DNA from: Mycobacterium sp. 050128
Lineage (GTDB): Bacteria; Actinomycetota; Actinomycetes; Mycobacteriales; Mycobacteriaceae
Direction: 5' to 3'
Assembly (NCBI RefSeq): GCF_036409155.1
Contig: NZ_JAZGLW010000005.1
Span: 198,618-262,617, forward strand
DNA: 64,000 nucleotides
Shown here: positions 56,071 to 64,000 of the stretch, in pieces
Position numbering within the stretch: the stretch's first letter is position 1
Layout: each line of letters starts with the position of its first letter
The notes under the pieces: model-generated
The model's input: only the letters and a program-made list of their open reading frames with translations
Database searches by the model: none
Told to the model about the DNA's origin: nothing
Made by a program: the position numbers and the translations under genes

Positions 56071-56544
56071 ATGAGCGGCGCCGTATGCCCGGGCTCGTTC
56101 GACCCGGTGACGTTGGGCCACATCGACGTCTTCGAACGCGCCGCGGGTCAGTTCGACGAGGTAGTCGTGGCGATCCTGACCAACCCCGCTAAGAAGGGCA
56201 TGTTCGACATCGACGAGCGCGTCGCGATGATCGAGGAAGCGACGGCTCACCTGCCGAATCTGCGCGTCGAGGTCGGGCAGGGCCTGGTGGTGGACTTCGT
56301 CACCTCCCGCGGGATGACCGCGATCGTCAAGGGCCTGCGCACCGACACCGATTTCGAGTACGAGTTGCAGATGGCGCAGATGAACAAGCACATCGCCAAT
56401 GTGGACACCTTCTTCGTGGCGACCGCGCCGCAGTATTCGTTCGTGTCGTCGTCGTTGGCCAAAGAGGTCGCGATGATGGGCGGCGACGTCTCGAAGCTGC
56501 TGCCGGAGTCGGTGAATCGCCGCCTGCGCGAGAGGCTGCCGTGA
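56071..56544 (+). CDS. coaD: Phosphopantetheine adenylyltransferase
   Basis: A 157-residue enzyme for the penultimate step of coenzyme A synthesis. It begins [23 protein letters not shown], where TLGH is the T/HxGH nucleotidyltransferase motif, and ends with [22 protein letters not shown]. The ATG at 56071 gives a length close to that of M. tuberculosis CoaD (161). It lies 24 bases after rsmD, the pairing usual in actinobacteria. It converges on the 13E12-family gene. Confidence 0.96.
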
Positions 56545-56561: not shown

Positions 56562-58112
56562 TTAATAGGGCGGGTCGTCCGGCAACCGCGTCACGGCTTC
56601 GGGTACCCAATCGGCGGGTAGTTCCTCGGGCTCGCGGGGTTCGTTGATCCAGGTGCAGAACGGGCTGGTGCTTGACGCGCCCTTGAATGCGAACAGACTG
56701 TCGCGCATATGGTTTCGGAACTTGCGCGCGGCAACTTCCTCTTTGCGGGCTTTTTGCTGCCGGTTATGCATCCGCGCTTGACTGATCCGGGCGCGTCGCC
56801 GCTGGGACCTATCACGTCGCACCGGGGTCGGCGTGGCGCACGCCGGTCCGCGCGGCTGAGGGAAAAGATCCGCCCCGGCCGGGAACGTCCGGTACACGCG
56901 CCCGCTCGGAGAGGTCCAGATGACGGTGCCGTCGCCAAGTTGTGTGTCGCGCCATCCACCGTGGAAGGTCTTGAGCCGATGGTGTTGGCGGCAAAGGCAT
57001 TTGAGATTAAGCGCCACCGTCATGCCACCGGCCGCTGGATCCTGGTGGTTGAACGGAACGGTGTGGTCGATATCGCATACCACTGCGGGACGGCTACATC
57101 CCGGGAAGCGACAGGTCAGATCCCGGCAACGAACGAAGCGTTCGAGTGCCGCGGATGGCTGGTAGTGCAGCGCCTGCGCCGGGCTGGTGACAGGGTCGGC
57201 AACGAGTTGTGCTGCGGCGGCGGCCAATTCACGGACCTGGTCGGCGTCGATGATCCCGTAACCCTCGAGGTAGCCCGGTGCATCGCTGTTGGCATTGACG
57301 GTTTTGTCGCTGGCGACCACGTTGATGACCACCCGCACACCGGCTGAATCCGGGTCGCTGCCGTCGGCTCCAGTCGTGGCGGGACAGTCGGGCTGTTCGC
57401 AGCGGCATACCAGGCCGCGCCCCTGAGTCAGCGCGGCCAAGGCATCCGCGCGGCGCTGATCCATCGTCCGCGGATCGGCTGCGCACACTTGGCCCGCAAG
57501 CTGCGAGAGCCGGCGATCGAAGGCCGTCGCGGCCGTGGCCCCGACGGTGCCGTAGATGTCTGCCATCCCGTTGTCCAGCGTGCTGATCGCGATGTACCGG
57601 TCATTCTCGGCGGTCTCGCGTCGTTCACGGGCGGCATCGGGATCGACGGCCCGCACCGTGGCGTCGACCGCATTGACGATGCGTTGTCGTGACCAGCCGT
57701 GCCATTTCCCGATGCGGTTGGCCAGTGACCGGTCGACCTCGGCGATCAACCGGTCGTCGGTGATCAGGTCGGTACGGCTGATGATCAACCGGACGGTGCG
57801 CCAATCGGTGCGGCCCTCGGACAGCAGGGCCGCCAGATTGGGCAGCCTGGTGTCGAGCGACTCGGCGTATGACACCAGATAGCTTGCCGCCATCGGGGAC
57901 AGGTTCATCGCGGCGGCCACCTCGGCCGCGGTCCGCTCGAACCCGTCGATCACGGCATAGCCACGGTGGTGCTCGGCCTGCTCGGTGGCGGCCACTCGGT
58001 GCCGAAGTAATGCCGCCACGGCCGCCATCCGCCGCGCCACCAACATCGACTCCTGCCGGTGGGCGGACTCGATCTCCGTCACCAGATCGGGGGGATCGAG
58101 GTTATCGAACAT
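56562..58112 (-). CDS. 13E12 repeat-family protein (DUF222 plus HNH endonuclease domain)
   Basis: A 516-residue member of the REP13E12 family, multi-copy in mycobacteria. The helical DUF222 domain covers about residues 1-300; the HNH domain has CRFPGCSRPAVVCDIDHTVPF and NLKCLCRQHHRLKTFHGGW, with the DH and HH catalytic positions intact. A basic tail of about 100 residues follows. I chose the ATG at 58112; it lies inside a LexA-type box, so a leaderless transcript or a TTG start at 58142 should be considered. In M. tuberculosis these genes are SOS-inducible, and prophage phiRv1 uses one as its attachment site. Function unknown. Confidence 0.88.
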   Translation of the reverse strand: MFDNLDPPDLVTEIESAHRQESMLVARRMAAVAALLRHRVAATEQAEHHRGYAVIDGFERTAAEVAAAMNLSPMAASYLVSYAESLDTRLPNLAALLSEGRTDWRTVRLIISRTDLITDDRLIAEVDRSLANRIGKWHGWSRQRIVNAVDATVRAVDPDAARERRETAENDRYIAISTLDNGMADIYGTVGATAATAFDRRLSQLAGQVCAADPRTMDQRRADALAALTQGRGLVCRCEQPDCPATTGADGSDPDSAGVRVVINVVASDKTVNANSDAPGYLEGYGIIDADQVRELAAAAAQLVADPVTSPAQALHYQPSAALERFVRCRDLTCRFPGCSRPAVVCDIDHTVPFNHQDPAAGGMTVALNLKCLCRQHHRLKTFHGGWRDTQLGDGTVIWTSPSGRVYRTFPAGADLFPQPRGPACATPTPVRRDRSQRRRARISQARMHNRQQKARKEEVAARKFRNHMRDSLFAFKGASSTSPFCTWINEPREPEELPADWVPEAVTRLPDDPPY

Positions 58113-58120
58113 ACATTCGA
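58105..58120. promoter_or_regulatory. LexA (SOS) box of the 13E12-family gene
   Basis: TCGAACATACATTCGA matches the mycobacterial SOS consensus TCGAAC-N4-GTTCGA at 11 of 12 specified bases. It overlaps the start codon of the 13E12-family gene and lies 153 bases before the PfaD-type start on the other strand. Davis and others defined this box and found it upstream of several 13E12 genes in M. tuberculosis (from memory). Confidence 0.8.
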
Positions 58121-58272
58121 TTATAGAAGGGTGGCCCGACAACTTCTGGACGGAGTTGAGATTCCTCAGCCGCGCGGTAGCGGTTCATGAGAAGCTCATT
58201 CTTGATTTTTCGATACATGGCTTCGGCCACCGCGGGGGATACGCGTCAACGCTGTGATGGAAGGACTCGGCA

Positions 58273-59925
58273 GTGGATGAGCGACCTACCGCTCTATTAA
58301 GCGATCGCACCGAGGCGGCCGTGAGCCCATGTTTGGGCGGATGGCGGGCGACGACCGCGCCGGCCGCATTCGCGCCGCAAGACATCGCTCACATCCTGCA
58401 GTACGTGCGCCACCCCGTTCATGTGGTCCGCGAGGACGCCACCGGTCAGCTGGGCCTGGCGATGGGCGGCGAACTGGTCGGCGCCGGTACGTCCGACATC
58501 TCCCTGATGGGGACACTGCCCCCGATCTATCCGGAATGGCTCGGCGACCGTGAGTTCTGCGAGTCACACGGGATCCGCTTCCCCTATGTCACGGGCGCCA
58601 TGGCCAACGGCATCGCCACCCCGGCACTGGTGGTGGCCGTGGCGGAGGCCGGGATGCTGGGCTTCTTCGGCGCGGGCGGCCTGTCGTTTGACGCCGTCGA
58701 ACGAGGACTGTCCGAGATTCAGACCAGGCTGGCGGGCAGACCACTTGCCTGGGGCGCCAACCTGATCCACTCACCCAACGAGGTTGCGCTCGAGGGACGG
58801 GTCGCCGAGCTGTTCATCGAACGGGGCGTCCGGGTCGTCGAGGCATCGGCGTTCATGAAGCTGACTCCCGCGGTCGTGCACTACGCCCTGTCGGGCTTGT
58901 CGACCGACCCGGCCGGCGCGATCGTCCGCAAGAACCACGTGATGGCCAAGATCTCGCGTCCCGAGGTCGCCCGCCTGTTCATGGAGCCCGCCCCCGCGGC
59001 CTTGGTTTCGGCGCTCGTCGCGTCCGGCAAGCTGACCCAGCGGGAAGCCGAGCTCGCCCAGCATGTACCGGTGGCCGAAGACATCACGGTCGAGGCCGAC
59101 AGCGGCGGGCACACCGACAACCGCCCGCTGCCGGCGTTGTTCTCGGAAATCGTGCTGCTGCGCGACAAGCTGGCGCGGCAGCACGCCCCGGCCTGCCGGA
59201 TCCGCGTGGGTGCCGCCGGGGGTCTTGGTACGCCGCAGTCGGTCGCCGGTGCCTTCGCGATGGGTGCCGCCTATGTGTTGACCGGCTCGGTCAACCAGTC
59301 GTGCATCGAGTCGGGTCTTTCCCCGCACGCCCGCGGCATGCTGGCCAAGGCCGGAGTGGCCGACGTGATGATGGCCCCGGCGTCCGACATGTTCGAGATG
59401 GGCGTGAACCTGCAGGTCCTCAAGCGTGGTGCCATGTTCGGCCCCCGGGCGAGGAAGCTCTACGAGTGGTATGCGGCCAACCCCAGCCTGAGTGCCGTCG
59501 TGGACAAGCACGGTGCCGAGCTGGAAAAGATCCTCGGCAAGAGTGTCGGGGAGGTCTGGGCCGAAACACATCAGTACTGGGAGCAGCGCGACCCCGCGGT
59601 GCTTGAACTCGCGACCCGGGACTCGAAATATCAGATGGGGCTGGTCTTCCGCTGGTACCTCGGCAAATCAAGCCGGTGGGCGATCGACGGGCAACCGGAT
59701 CGTGTCCTGGACTACCAGATCTGGTGTGGCCCCTCGATGGGAGCCTTCAACAGCTGGGTGGCGGGTAGCTATCTGGAGGACCCTGAGCAGCGGAAAGTCG
59801 ATCAAGTGGCGCTGAATTTGCTGGAGGGCGCCACCCACATCAGCCGGGCCCACCAGGCTCGCAAATGCGGCGTGCCCGTTCCGGCGGATGCGTTCAACTA
59901 CGCCCCGCGCCCGCTTTCTTTGTAA
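58273..59925 (+). CDS. PfaD-family enoyl reductase (trans-acting ER of PUFA/polyketide synthases)
   Basis: A 550-residue flavin-dependent protein of the nitronate monooxygenase-like TIM barrel, PfaD subgroup. Features include PYVTGAMANGIATPALVVAVAEAG, LGFFGAGGLSFDAVERGL, WGANLIHSPNEVALE, the FMN-binding ADSGGHTDNRPLPALF and the RVGAAGGLGTPQSVAGAFAMGAAYVLTGS phosphate-binding strand; the C-terminal cap ends DAFNYAPRPLSL. PfaD reduces enoyl intermediates in trans for bacterial PUFA synthases and some trans-AT polyketide systems. GGAAGGA at 58259-58265 supports the GTG at 58273. The next gene is a PfaA-type synthase, which confirms the assignment. I know of no equivalent at this place in M. tuberculosis. 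Confidence 0.9.
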   Translation: MDERPTALLSDRTEAAVSPCLGGWRATTAPAAFAPQDIAHILQYVRHPVHVVREDATGQLGLAMGGELVGAGTSDISLMGTLPPIYPEWLGDREFCESHGIRFPYVTGAMANGIATPALVVAVAEAGMLGFFGAGGLSFDAVERGLSEIQTRLAGRPLAWGANLIHSPNEVALEGRVAELFIERGVRVVEASAFMKLTPAVVHYALSGLSTDPAGAIVRKNHVMAKISRPEVARLFMEPAPAALVSALVASGKLTQREAELAQHVPVAEDITVEADSGGHTDNRPLPALFSEIVLLRDKLARQHAPACRIRVGAAGGLGTPQSVAGAFAMGAAYVLTGSVNQSCIESGLSPHARGMLAKAGVADVMMAPASDMFEMGVNLQVLKRGAMFGPRARKLYEWYAANPSLSAVVDKHGAELEKILGKSVGEVWAETHQYWEQRDPAVLELATRDSKYQMGLVFRWYLGKSSRWAIDGQPDRVLDYQIWCGPSMGAFNSWVAGSYLEDPEQRKVDQVALNLLEGATHISRAHQARKCGVPVPADAFNYAPRPLSL

Positions 59926-60514
59926 GTGTTTTCGGCCTCCGGCAGAAAAATGCCGGACGCTTTCCGCATGCCGACAAACTGCGGCCCCATTGCGCAATTG
60001 TGAGCTGCTGACGTGCGGTTAGCGCAGTGCGTTTATTCAGTTCACGCGATAGACCGCGAACGGGGGCAATATCCAATTAATTCCTGTTACTCGTCAGTAA
60101 CTGCGAACTGACACATTTGGAAACGAAGGAATTGGACGCTCCCGATCACCGTAATGACCTATCCGGCCGTCTTAGCAAAGCTCACCGGGTGCGATTACGG
60201 GTGCGCGCGGACCGTTGCCGCGGCGGCGATACGCGCGGTCTCGTAGAGCTGAAATGGCTCGTCCGACCCACCAGCATCGCTCTGTCACGGTCCGCAGGCA
60301 AGCCAGGAAACCGTCGGATCAATGACCGTCTTAAAGACGGTCAAGCGGTATTGACTGTTCGTCAGTACAAGACCCTGCGTTCTGATATGGTCCCGGCGAG
60401 CGATAGGCCTGCCCCGGGGGTGTAGGTCAATGCAGCAAAACCTCGACGATCAGTCTTCGGTGTGCCGCAAGTAAACACTCGATGTTGCTCGTCTAGCCAA
60501 TGCAAAGGTGATCG
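59926..60514. promoter_or_regulatory. 589-base AT-richer intergenic region with several palindromes before the PKS gene
   Basis: No convincing gene. It holds CCGGCA/TGCCGG (hairpin just past the PfaD stop, about 59937-59954), the palindrome ATTGCGCAAT (59989-59998), GTTACT/AGTAAC spaced by four bases (60086-60101) and the perfect 19-base palindrome GACCGTCTTAAAGACGGTC (60324-60342). CGTCAGTA occurs twice (in 60086-60101 and about 60360-60367). These are probable operators or leader structures for the synthase. AAAGGTGA lies just before the ATG at 60515. A 102-codon open frame at 60117-60425 has no coding character. Confidence 0.6.
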
Positions 60515-63500
60515 ATGGCATCAAAGCACCCCCCTGTTGCGGTTGTCGGCGTCAGCGCGCTGTTTCCCGGGTCTCCCGAAGCCGAGCGCTTCTGGCGCAA
60601 CATCATCGGAGGCGTCGACCTGTTCTCCGAGGTCCCCGAGTCGCACTGGCGCATTGACGACTACTACCACCCCGATCCGCATATGCCGGACAAGGTGTAC
60701 GCGCGTCGCGGCGGATTCTTGCCTGATGTCGACTTTTCACCAATGGATTTCGGCATTCCGCCGAACGTTATGCCCGCAACCGATACCGCCCAGCTGCTTG
60801 CACTGAGGGTCGCGCAACAAGTTTTAGAGGACGCCGCGGGGGGTGATTTTTCTCACATCGATCGCGAGCGGATCAGCGTCATCCTCGGCGCCTCCGGTGG
60901 CACGGAGCTGATCACCTACATCAGCGGCCGTCTGCACCGGCCGGTCTGGGAGCGAGGACTGCGGGCTGCCGGTCTGTCGGAACCAGAGGTTGCCGCATTC
61001 AGCGAACGCGTGACGTCGAACTACGCGACTTGGCAGGAGAACACCTTCCCCGGGCTGCTCGGCAACGTGATCGCCGGCCGGATCGCCAACCGCTTCGACC
61101 TTGGCGGTACCAACTGCGTCATCGACGCCGCGTGTGCCAGCTCGCTGGCGGCGCTCGAAGCCGGGCTGCACGAGCTCTACCTCGGCGAAGCGGACATGGT
61201 GCTCGCCGGCGGAGTCGATGCCTTCAACGACATCTTCATGTACATGTGCTTCGCCAAGGTGACGGCGCTGTCGACCAGTGGCGACTGCCGGCCGTTCTCC
61301 GACAAATCCGACGGCACGATGCTGGGCGAAGGGCTGTCCATGTTCGCGCTCAAGCGTCTCGACGACGCCGAGCGCGACGGCGACCGGATCTACGCGGTGA
61401 TCCGCGGCATCGGCACCTCCTCGGACGGCCGGGCCAAGAGTATTTATGCGCCGAGCCCGACGGGTCAGGCGAAAGCTCTTCGGCGCGCCTACGAGGCCGC
61501 GGGCTACGGCCCGGAAACCGTCGGGCTCGTCGAAGCGCATGGCACCGGGACCAAGGCCGGGGACGCGGCCGAGTTCGAAGCGTTGCGGGAGGTCTTCAAC
61601 GCATCGGGGCGCGAGGATCGGCAGTGGTGCGCACTCGGCTCGGTCAAGTCCCAGATCGGGCACACCAAGGGTGCGGCCGGAGCGGGTGGCCTGTTCAAGG
61701 TGGTGATGGCGCTTCACCACAAGGCGTTGCCGCCGACGATCAAGATCGACCGGCCGAACCCCGCCCTCGAGATCGAGCAGTCGCCGTTCTACCTTTCCAC
61801 CCAGTCCAAGCCGTGGATGGCCGACAACGGCGTCCCGCGGCGGGCGTCGGTCAGCTCGTTCGGCTTCGGCGGCACCAACTTCCACGTCGCCGTCGAGGAG
61901 TACACGGGCACCGGAAAGCGTGCATATCGATTCCGCTCCTGGGATTCCGAACTGGTCGTGCTGGGCGCGCCTTCTTCGGCGGCGCTCTCCGCGCAAGCAG
62001 CTGCGCTGTCCGCATCACTGGTCGACAGTCCGGACATGCTCAGCTGGATCGCGCACAGCACGCAAGCCGCGTACAACGCTGCGCAGCCCCACCGCCTGGC
62101 CGTCGTCGCCGACAGTGTTTCGACCTTGCAGACGATGCTCGACGAAGTCGCGGCGAAGCTCAGCGCGGCCGATGTCCCGTCGTCGTTCGCCTCGCCCAGG
62201 GGCTACTTCTACTCGGCGCAGCGACCCGGGCCGGTCGCCTTGCTGTTCCCGGGCCAGGGCAGCCAGTACGTCGGCATGGGCGCCGACCTGCCGCAGCTCC
62301 ATGAGCCTGCGTTGGCGGCATGGGAATGTGCGCGAGCTGACCGGTTGAACGCCGATCGCGATCTGCACGACGTCGTCTGGCCGAAGACGGCATTCACCGA
62401 TGACGAGCGCGCGCTGCAGTCGGCCGAGCTGACGAAAACCCAGTGGGCGCAGCCGGGCATTGGTGCGCACAGCCTGAGTCTGCTCTCGGTGATTCGCTCG
62501 CTTGGCATTGCACCCGTTGCCGTCGGTGGCCACAGCTTCGGCGAAGTCACCGCGCTGTGTGCCGCGGGAGTTTTCGGAGGCGAGGTCGCCCTGCAAATCG
62601 CGCGTAAGCGCGGTGAGCTGATGGCCGATGCGGCCACTAACAGCGACGGCGCCATGTGTGCGGTGACCGCGCCGGTCGAGCAGGTCCGCCAACTGATCGG
62701 GGAGTGGGGGCTGCCGGTTGTCATTGCTAACCACAATGCTCCCAATCAGGCTGTGCTGTCCGGGAATAGCACCGCCATCGAACACGCGGCACAGCGGTTT
62801 GCCGCGGCGGGCATCAACGCGCGACGCCTGGATGTCGCCACCGCATTCCATTCCGACATCGTCAGCCCGGCAGCGATTCCCTTCGCTTCCTTCCTGGCTG
62901 GTATCGCGTTCGGCACGCCCGCGGTGCCCGTCTACGCCAATGCGACAGCGCAGCCGTACGCCGGTGACGCGCAACAAATGCGGACGACGCTCGCCAACCA
63001 GATCGCTCAGCCGGTGCGGTTCGTCGAGCAGATTCAGGCAATGTGGCGCGCCGGCGCGCGCACCTTCGTCGAGGTCGGCCCCGGCGGCGTGCTGACAAAT
63101 CTCGTCGGCAAGTGTCTCGCCGGCGAGGAGCACTCCGCGGTGTCGCTGGATGCCAAGGGCAAGAACGGAATTCGATCGCTGTGGATCGGATTGGCCCAAC
63201 TCGTGGCGGCCGGCGTCCCGATGAATTTCGAGGGCCTGTGGGCCGACTATCGCATCGGTGACGATCCGCGTAACCGTGAGAAGCCGAAGCTGACCTTGAA
63301 GATCAATGGATCCAATTATGGAAGGCCGCCAATAAGCGACGAGCCTGTGCGGCGGCCGTCCGATATCGAAACAACTCTCGACCGCAGTGGCCGCAGCAAC
63401 GGCCACAGGACCGAATCGGAGTCCAAATTTATGCCATCTGAATCCATTACCCCCGTGGTCCACGTCAACGGCACGCCATCCGCGGTCCCGCCGCCGGCGC

Positions 63501-64000
63501 CGGTTCCGGTCGCCCCGACGGTGATGCCGGCCGCGCCCGCGGCGGCCGCGCTCAATGGTCATGCCGCGAGCAACGGCAACGGTCATGGCCCACTCGGTGC
63601 GTCGGCGACCGCCGTGATCGCTCCGCCCGCGCCGGTGACCTTGGCGGCTCCTACGCCCGTGCCAGCGCCGGCGGCCGCACCCGTGTTGAGTGCCGAAGTG
63701 GTGACGGAGATGATCGCAGCGGTAGGAACGCTGCGCGACGCCTTCGACAGTCTGCAACGTGTCTTGCAAGGTCTCGTGGCCCCGTCGGCAGCGGCCGCCC
63801 CGCCTGCTCCAACTCCGGCTATTGCCAACGGAACTCCGCTCGTGCTCGCTGCCCCGGCTGTCCACAACGGGACGGTTGCTGCGCCTGCTCCTGCGCCGCC
63901 TGTCTCGGTGGCGGTGCCTGCTTCGGTGGTGTCGGGTGTGGATTTGGTGGGTGAGATGTTGGCGGTGGTGGCGGATAAGACGGGTTATCCCGTTGAGATG
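60515..64000 (+). CDS. PfaA-type iterative polyketide/polyunsaturated fatty acid synthase, N-terminal part (3' end outside window)
   Basis: 1162 residues are visible and the frame stays open at the edge. Order: ketosynthase (about 7-460) with catalytic C207 in DAACASSL, H342 in EAHGTGTKAGD and H383 in GSVKSQIGHTKGAAG; linker; acyltransferase (about 570-880) with FPGQGSQYVGMG, S674 in GHSFGE and H779 in AFHSD; then a long Ala/Pro-rich linker. At the edge comes the start of an acyl-carrier unit, DLVGEMLAVVADKTGYPVEM, which matches the first helix of the tandem ACP repeats of PfaA. The KS head (IDDYYHPDPHMPDKVYARRG, PPNVMPATDTAQLL) also follows PfaA rather than mycobacterial Pks or Pps enzymes. 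The ATG at 60515 follows an in-frame TGA and AAAGGTGA. Confidence 0.92.
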   Translation, partial: MASKHPPVAVVGVSALFPGSPEAERFWRNIIGGVDLFSEVPESHWRIDDYYHPDPHMPDKVYARRGGFLPDVDFSPMDFGIPPNVMPATDTAQLLALRVAQQVLEDAAGGDFSHIDRERISVILGASGGTELITYISGRLHRPVWERGLRAAGLSEPEVAAFSERVTSNYATWQENTFPGLLGNVIAGRIANRFDLGGTNCVIDAACASSLAALEAGLHELYLGEADMVLAGGVDAFNDIFMYMCFAKVTALSTSGDCRPFSDKSDGTMLGEGLSMFALKRLDDAERDGDRIYAVIRGIGTSSDGRAKSIYAPSPTGQAKALRRAYEAAGYGPETVGLVEAHGTGTKAGDAAEFEALREVFNASGREDRQWCALGSVKSQIGHTKGAAGAGGLFKVVMALHHKALPPTIKIDRPNPALEIEQSPFYLSTQSKPWMADNGVPRRASVSSFGFGGTNFHVAVEEYTGTGKRAYRFRSWDSELVVLGAPSSAALSAQAAALSASLVDSPDMLSWIAHSTQAAYNAAQPHRLAVVADSVSTLQTMLDEVAAKLSAADVPSSFASPRGYFYSAQRPGPVALLFPGQGSQYVGMGADLPQLHEPALAAWECARADRLNADRDLHDVVWPKTAFTDDERALQSAELTKTQWAQPGIGAHSLSLLSVIRSLGIAPVAVGGHSFGEVTALCAAGVFGGEVALQIARKRGELMADAATNSDGAMCAVTAPVEQVRQLIGEWGLPVVIANHNAPNQAVLSGNSTAIEHAAQRFAAAGINARRLDVATAFHSDIVSPAAIPFASFLAGIAFGTPAVPVYANATAQPYAGDAQQMRTTLANQIAQPVRFVEQIQAMWRAGARTFVEVGPGGVLTNLVGKCLAGEEHSAVSLDAKGKNGIRSLWIGLAQLVAAGVPMNFEGLWADYRIGDDPRNREKPKLTLKINGSNYGRPPISDEPVRRPSDIETTLDRSGRSNGHRTESESKFMPSESITPVVHVNGTPSAVPPPAPVPVAPTVMPAAPAAAALNGHAASNGNGHGPLGASATAVIAPPAPVTLAAPTPVPAPAAAPVLSAEVVTEMIAAVGTLRDAFDSLQRVLQGLVAPSAAAAPPAPTPAIANGTPLVLAAPAVHNGTVAAPAPAPPVSVAVPASVVSGVDLVGEMLAVVADKTGYPVEM

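Follow-up and report, generated by a model that had tools for sequence, protein, structure and literature searches.

Among the described systems for the synthesis of polyunsaturated fatty acids (PUFAs), the marine pfaABCDE clusters of Shewanella, Photobacterium and Moritella share their PfaD, PfaA and PfaC cores with the subject of this report, a pfaD-pfaA-pfaC locus of Mycobacterium sp. 050128 whose first part forms the right end of a 64-kb stretch of that genome (contig NZ_JAZGLW010000005.1, positions 198,618 to 262,617; hereafter the window). The mycobacterial PfaD is, by sequence, near the solved Shewanella-type PfaD. The marine clusters, however, also have pfaB and pfaE, whereas our locus is without both and has an AGPAT-like acyltransferase fused to its PfaC. 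Going by its published description, the Type L secondary-lipid synthase of Sorangium cellulosum So ce56, Streptomyces coelicolor and others (Shulse & Allen 2011, PMC3098273) resembles our locus in that pfaD opens the cluster at its 5' end, followed by pfaA and by a fused pfaC of the form ketosynthase (KS), chain length factor (CLF) and dehydratases (KS-CLF-DH2) with a C-terminal acyltransferase (AT); the latter we infer to be a PlsC/AGPAT-like domain. No mycobacterium stands in Table 2 of that paper or is named as a carrier in its main text. Our locus lies between coaD and arsP. The myxobacterial Pfa1-Pfa2-Pfa3 systems of Aetherobacter, Minicystis rosea and Sorangium are described as having the same three genes and the same domains, AGPAT included, the latter being a chain-terminating acyltransferase in Pfa3 that forms phosphatidic acid (PMC8436480). 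According to the same account the Pfa3 of Aetherobacter and Minicystis rosea has an AT, whereas the mycobacterial PfaC is without it, like that of Sorangium; the mycobacterial acyl carrier protein (ACP) domains are also few. In mycobacteria themselves, hybrid clusters of polyketide synthase (PKS), nonribosomal peptide synthetase (NRPS) and PUFA genes have been reported in M. fortunisiensis and Mycolicibacterium sp. CBMA 234; as described, these have pfa-like genes, as here, but add a monomodular PKS, a coenzyme A (CoA) ligase and an NRPS (PMC13291983).

Gene content and domain organization

Judged by its genes, domains and KS phylogeny, the locus encodes a PUFA synthase of the three-gene, myxobacterial kind ('Type L') that lacks the PfaB-type AT. 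We consider it likely that pfaD, pfaA and pfaC encode a PUFA (secondary-lipid) synthase that makes a PUFA glycerolipid by means of the PlsC/AGPAT-like acyltransferase fused to PfaC. A PUFA-synthase-like character had already been proposed in a sequence-only reading of the window, and the analysis supports it: what follows downstream is not a modular PKS devoid of tandem ACPs and FabA-like dehydratases (DHs). The genes pfaD and the 5' half of pfaA, both on the forward strand, make up the right end of the window:

58273–59925 (+): pfaD, trans-acting enoyl reductase of 550 aa with a GTG start; an open frame with matches to TIGR02814 and PDB entries
59926–60514 (+): gap between pfaD and pfaA; an imperfect palindrome lies in its conserved last ~165 bases
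60515–64000 (+): 5' part of pfaA (first 3486 bases, 1162 aa), open at the window end, with KS, AT, linker and the start of an ACP
~60533–61747 (+): KS of PfaA, aa 7–411, in two Pfam pieces (KS and KS extension), over the cut-offs
~62243–63121 (+): AT of PfaA, aa 577–869, over the Pfam cut-off
~63930–64000 (+): first part of an ACP, following a Pro/Ala-rich linker and cut by the contig end

The pairing of a PfaD with a PfaA-type synthase, as first read from the window, is borne out by both proteins. PfaD, the family's enoyl reductase at the 5' end of the cluster as in the three-gene type, scores 594.6 bits against TIGR02814 (pfaD_fam, cut-off 449.25), and its best solved relatives are the PfaD chains 6lkc (E 8.7e-142) and 4yx6 (E 8.7e-141). 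The best NCBIfam model for the window part of PfaA is TIGR02813 (PfaA), with 951.5 bits over aa 4–903, while the Pks13 and Pks2 models give 391.9 and 389.3 bits, far below their cut-offs. The TIGR02813 score lies under the whole-protein cut-off of 1010.1, as is to be expected when only half a protein is scored; the full-length orthologue of the relative G277 (2368 aa, KS-AT-4 PP-binding-KR-PS-DH, where KR is a ketoreductase) reaches 1714.2 against that cut-off. The KS carries DAACASS from aa 204 and the AT carries GHSFGE from 672 and TAFHSD from 776, the last of which we take, by the usual AT motif rules, to be of the malonyl type. Of the predicted order KS-AT-linker-ACP, the first three elements stand as read; only the first part of an ACP falls within the window, and a Pfam scan of this part of PfaA reports no ACP.

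The window's right end is also the end of its contig (C5, 262617 bases), which interrupts pfaA inside the ACP array and put the remainder beyond the view of the sequence-only reading. Its final stretch matches the very beginning of another contig of the same genome, C4, at 92%, and the final 77 bases are found again in C4, so that a collapsed repeat would account for the break. C4 starts inside an ACP and continues with one additional ACP, a KR and a DH (a 938-aa 3' part of pfaA, scoring 497.2 bits against TIGR02813), and beyond it with pfaC (2464 aa, L010:2845-10239). We have read the two contigs as separate pieces and taken the gene order across the break from the relatives. PfaA has the KS-AT-tandem ACP-KR-DH layout of the three-gene type, in our genome in two contig pieces that hold at least two ACPs between them. 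The PfaA proteins of relatives show one to four ACP motifs, with none visible in G164, where the ACP region contains a run of N, or in G113, which is cut.

PfaC begins with a KS (Cys 183) and a CLF in which Gln 617 stands at the position of the KS cysteine, as aligned by eye. A FabA-type DH1 (1198–1326, His 1237), with a FabA-like pseudo-domain alongside, is followed by a second FabA-like stretch at 1408–1535 (35 bits, the histidine absent by eye), a FabA-type DH2 (His 1630), a PKS_DH_N-like (PS-DH-like) stretch at 1768–1851 and an acyltransferase-like stretch of the PlsC/AGPAT type at 2218–2348 (His 2228). The DH stretch matches FabA structures with a best E of 2.2e-37. PfaC has in this way the KS, inactive CLF and FabA-type DH pairs of the three-gene type, and alignment and motif, its own score falling just short of the cut-off, point to the fused C-terminal acyltransferase that such synthases carry. 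The sequence-only reading had suggested looking to the right of the window for further ACPs, a KR, a PfaC-like KS/CLF, FabA-type DHs and an acyltransferase; all are found on C4, the last as part of PfaC, and in relatives the ACP motifs number up to four.

For comparison we assembled the PfaC homologues P0001–P0120, the best 120 of 3221 proteins drawn from 7999 scored candidates. The acyltransferase motif NHQ..(V/I/M/L)ES is present in 109 of these 120; of the 11 without it, five are shorter than 1900 aa and six measure 2870–3136 aa. The AT domain Acyl_transf_1 is absent from our PfaC, as from P0001–P0065 of this best-120 set; it occurs in part of P0066–P0120, and in P0076 and P0120 it lies between CLF and DHs. 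Neither of the features of EPA/DHA-type synthases (eicosapentaenoic and docosahexaenoic acid), a PfaB or an AT within Pfa3, was found at our locus: no pfaB gene lies between or beside pfaD, pfaA and pfaC. A dedicated phosphopantetheinyl transferase (PPTase) of the pfaE type, as in the marine clusters, is likewise missing at the locus. The genome does have the PPTases that had been expected, two PF01648 proteins (C1:3394136 and C4:165964), both outside the pfa locus, and in known producers pfaE is described as often lying away from the cluster (PMC8436480). A foreign base composition of the pfa genes was considered and dismissed, the G+C content of pfaD (0.671), the pfaA part (0.662) and pfaC (0.662) being close to that of the window (0.667).

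KS phylogeny and distribution

A FastTree phylogeny of 152 KS domains was computed, in which ordinary mycobacterial Pks proteins were represented by 30 hand-picked rows (16 from our genome, 14 from relatives). Left out were the KS of FAS-I, the type I fatty acid synthase (L163), C4_p_13670 (a duplicate of the Mas-like KS) and rows shorter than 330 aa or beyond the E-value limit, among them the Kas-type L159, L160 and L162. A single branch with support 1.0 separates the 30 ordinary Pks KSs from the rest. Our PfaA KS falls among PfaA KSs of many phyla, within a group of 76 (1.0) that has a nested clade of 74 (0.92). The clade around our PfaC KS has 46 members (1.0), with support of 0.49–0.74 on its inner branches. 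No ordinary Pks is found inside either. The expectation that the KS would group with PfaA rather than with the usual mycobacterial Pks proteins has thus been upheld.

Within the genus, PfaD is detected at E<=1e-30 in 72 of 396 genomes, and in the wider family at E<=1e-100 in 34 of 301 genomes, from 9 of 31 genera. Group A comprises 29 of the 396 genus genomes, our own included, with a copy at >=74%, although G076 and G226 have fragments only; group B is a 68–70% copy in four genomes (G023, G015, G113 and G216), of which G113 and G216 are also in A; and group C, with a PfaD at 51–54%, includes about 40 genus genomes. G031 stands apart, its 41% PfaD containing a stop. Named carriers are M. ahvazicum (G235), which by PfaD is the closest named relative at 96%, M. 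florentinum (G363), M. rhizamassiliense (G242), M. numidiamassiliense (G244), M. vicinigordonae (G381), Mycolicibacter virginiensis (G069), M. simulans (G023), M. simiae (G015) and M. angelicum (G216); M. intermedium, M. szulgai, Mycolicibacter nonchromogenicus, M. heidelbergense, M. shigaense and M. riyadhense are further names among the homologues.

In the tree, groups A and B are represented by 15 mycobacterial PfaA KSs, which form one clade (0.999); next outside it come a proteobacterial metagenome-assembled genome (MAG), L056 (0.921), and a myxococcote MAG, L055 (1.0). Group C, represented by two rows (G295 and L121), is a separate branch elsewhere, and the genus has therefore probably acquired such genes at least twice. 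This group may or may not include the clusters of M. fortunisiensis and CBMA 234. At the single group-C locus inspected, that of G295 (L138, L139), the PfaC piece contains three FabA stretches, matches AT weakly, below the cut-off, and shows no PlsC-like match, and two MMPL-family transporter genes follow a few kb downstream, as if a lipid were exported.

Selection and loss

The pfa cassette is under purifying selection. In comparisons with seven relatives, the ratio of nonsynonymous to synonymous substitution rates (dN/dS) is 0.06–0.19 for the four pfa pieces (pfaD itself 0.09–0.18), beside 0.04–0.10 for coaD and pyc and 0.17–0.26 for the DUF222 gene upstream. In eight relatives (G277, G363, G110, G164, G242, G235, G143 and G244) a single contig carries coaD, pfaD, pfaA, pfaC, arsP, a ligase, a Mas-like PKS and a PapA5 homologue, although in G242 the frame of pfaC is disrupted (1807 aa). 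The cassette is preceded by coaD and followed by arsP in 14 of 25 group-A stretches; neither gene is seen in the other 11, some of the stretches having been fetched short.

In G080, G248 and G036, genomes without a listed pfaD, coaD and arsP are 60–80 bases apart. In two sister genomes the same interval is longer and holds what is left of pfaC: a 1.8-kb gap in G132 contains a weak match to the 3' end (residues 2381–2421 at 61%, 48.5 bits), and a 1.4-kb gap in G031 contains residues 2135–2462 at 83% (544 bits). In G076, pieces of pfaD and pfaA are spread over several frames. From these remnants it follows that the locus was once present and has decayed or been lost more than once in the clade. 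A recent insertion between coaD and arsP was accordingly rejected for our own clade, the empty site of G132 and G031 being a product of loss.

The pfaD-pfaA gap and the genes around the locus

The last ~165 bases before pfaA (60349–60514) are 88–99% identical to five relatives, against 56–87% for the remainder of the gap. This conserved block, a candidate operator or promoter region, opens with an imperfect palindrome at 60349–60367 that has one exact match in the window and none in shuffled sequences. TATTGAC is present in 14 of 18 aligned loci, in four of which the palindrome TATTGAC-N5-GTCAATA is perfect; here it has one change. A second palindrome, GTTAC-N6-GTAAC, lies at 60086–60101, and both look like putative operators of some regulator. 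The perfect 21-base palindrome of our gap is not present as such in the 14 relatives inspected. A known RNA in the gap was also considered; the sole Rfam match over 58000–61000 falls inside pfaA with 28.6 bits against a cut-off of 70, and we take it to be due to chance.

To the left of pfaD are two genes outside the synthase:

56071–56544 (+): coaD, left neighbour in 14 of the 25 group-A cassettes examined
56562–58142 (−): gene of a DUF222 protein (Pfam PF02720) between coaD and pfaD, found in some relatives only

The locus does lie just past coaD, as had been noted from the window. The DUF222 gene stands between coaD and pfaD here and in some relatives, not in G110 or G143, and related copies are found between coaD and arsP in G132 and G031 and, in G076, next to the broken pfaD.

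To the right, arsP sits in the opposite orientation between pfaC and a fatty-acid-AMP ligase that starts ~1.7 kb past pfaC (NF004509, 910 against a cut-off of 775; the FadD28 and FadD21 models are below theirs). A Pks2/Mas-like synthase (NF041183, 2559 against 2400) and a PapA5-like transferase, whose models are under their cut-offs (568 against 716 and 522 against 539), are followed by DrrC, DrrB, DrrA and then by PKSs labelled PpsE and PpsD by position, a set resembling a dimycocerosate (DIM) locus. A hybrid cluster would have a dedicated PKS and NRPS within 20 kb; no NRPS was found among the open reading frames scanned, which were part of the total. G132 and G031, which are without a working cassette, have the ligase, the Mas-like PKS and the PapA5 homologue after arsP as here, the last at ~10.2 kb and ~11.8 kb respectively, compared with 10.1 kb in our genome. 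The ligase and PKS near pfaC are in other words part of a DIM-like set that occurs without pfa, and because this set keeps its place without the cassette the neighbourhood is probably positional. The sequence-only reading was right about proximity to a region like that for phthiocerol dimycocerosates (PDIM), but the same locus is there in relatives whose cassette no longer works. In M. vicinigordonae G381 (L135), pfaC is followed, on the other strand, by a relative of the ligase (55%) and a long open frame resembling a PKS, and in the sequence fetched the site does not correspond to the coaD-arsP junction.

Proposed pathway and alternatives

On the basis of the genes and their order, the domains and motifs, the family assignment and the selection described above, a reaction programme, chain length, acceptor and final lipid can be proposed by analogy with the families concerned. 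The AT of PfaA would load malonyl units onto the tandem ACPs, and the chain would be elongated iteratively by two KSs, that of PfaA and that of PfaC together with its inactive CLF. The KR would reduce, and dehydration would fall to the DHs, chiefly those of the FabA type, with isomerisation in some rounds preserving cis double bonds; PfaD would reduce the enoyl group in other rounds. The C-terminal acyltransferase would then transfer the polyunsaturated chain to a lysophosphatidic-type acceptor to give a PUFA glycerolipid. We predict a C18–C22 polyunsaturated chain on a glycerolipid, a phleic acid being less likely; the predicted length derives from the literature, which ties the AT to EPA and DHA and describes Sorangium, with its AT-less Pfa3, as making neither (PMC8436480).

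Several points weigh against this interpretation. The acyltransferase domain of our PfaC scores 22.3 bits, just below the Pfam cut-off of 23, even if it aligns over its full length with the passing homologues P0076 (30.6) and P0120 (34.1). Its motif, in those 109 of the best 120 homologues, has the form HX4E, whereas the usual motif of PlsC-like acyltransferases is HX4D. Our pfaA is split by the assembly gap and the reading frame across it is predicted, just as the product is predicted from gene families. The cassette is dispensable, as its decay or loss in three sister genomes (G132, G031 and G076) shows. Furthermore, the one to four ACP motifs of the relatives are fewer than the five to nine given as typical of PUFA synthases in one account, which also describes PfaB, the AT type missing here, as a terminal AT that decides the product (PMC12895367). 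In the open-access literature searched, no relevant lipid profile was found for M. ahvazicum, nor anything relevant on PUFAs in M. simiae.

Few ACPs, no PfaB-type AT and one extra PS-DH-like piece in PfaC could be taken to mean that a PUFA-synthase-like system makes some other acyl product: a polyene of the phleic type, a chain with hydroxyl groups or conjugated bonds, or a long-chain precursor. Specialised lipids are made by many pfa-like clusters, and the products of 14 pfa-like types, Type L among them, are described as uncharacterised (PMC3098273). We nevertheless think this unlikely, for two FabA-type DHs with isomerase-like relatives, a CLF and an AGPAT are together the set described for the PUFA-making myxobacteria (PMC8436480). 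With regard to phleic acids, which the sequence-only reading had brought up, the literature links trehalose polyphleates to a different locus with MmpL10, PE and FadD23 (PMC11633156). Their Pks has an ordinary Pks KS, with which ours does not group; no sign of the link was found, the trehalose polyphleate genes themselves not having been searched for in our genome.

A further alternative has the PUFA chain passed on to the DIM-like machinery (ligase, Pks2/Mas-like PKS and PapA5-like transferase) to give a DIM-like lipid with a polyunsaturated chain or another hybrid surface lipid. The short distance from pfaC to the ligase with only arsP between, an order kept in the eight relatives, would suit such a pathway, as would the ligase (55% to ours) and PKS matches after pfaC in G381 and the hybrid PKS-NRPS-PUFA clusters reported from other mycobacteria (PMC13291983). 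However, arsP points the opposite way, PfaC carries a terminal acyltransferase of its own, and the DIM-like genes stand beside arsP in G132 and G031 where there is no working cassette. Moreover, among 30 cassette genomes eight have a PapA5 homologue at >=75% within ~31 kb of pfaD, while in 13 the homologue is at 46–56% and in nine there is none at E<=1e-60. The idea of a single pathway is weakened to the point of being very unlikely. It would be more improbable still that the locus is a relic in our strain, the break at the contig end reflecting a damaged pfaA and not an unassembled repeat. Decay has occurred in its kin (the multi-frame pieces of G076, the 3' remnants of pfaC in G031 and G132, the broken pfaC of G242), but both of our contig pieces are open frames with the sought motifs in place, the 77 terminal bases recur in C4 as a collapsed repeat would, and dN/dS is low. 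A PUFA synthase with a glycerolipid product is therefore the interpretation that we retain as likely.

Mycobacteria have been studied mainly for their lipids, yet a PUFA synthase in slow growers is apparently unreported, no such report being found in the titles and abstract openings of the open-access papers searched. The mycobacterium examined here may make PUFAs, and a PUFA product would be news for the genus. A bolder thought, quite unlikely as it stands, is that the slow growers of this group place PUFAs made de novo in an envelope lipid, either a glycerolipid class missed by surveys or a polyunsaturated DIM-like variant. The AGPAT-fused synthase, described as unique to terrestrial myxobacteria (PMC8436480), now appears in another phylum, with intact-looking copies in nameable species (M. 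ahvazicum, M. florentinum, M. vicinigordonae and Mycolicibacter virginiensis), and the sister genomes that retain only remnants would be natural controls for whether, and in which lipid, mycobacteria make PUFAs de novo.

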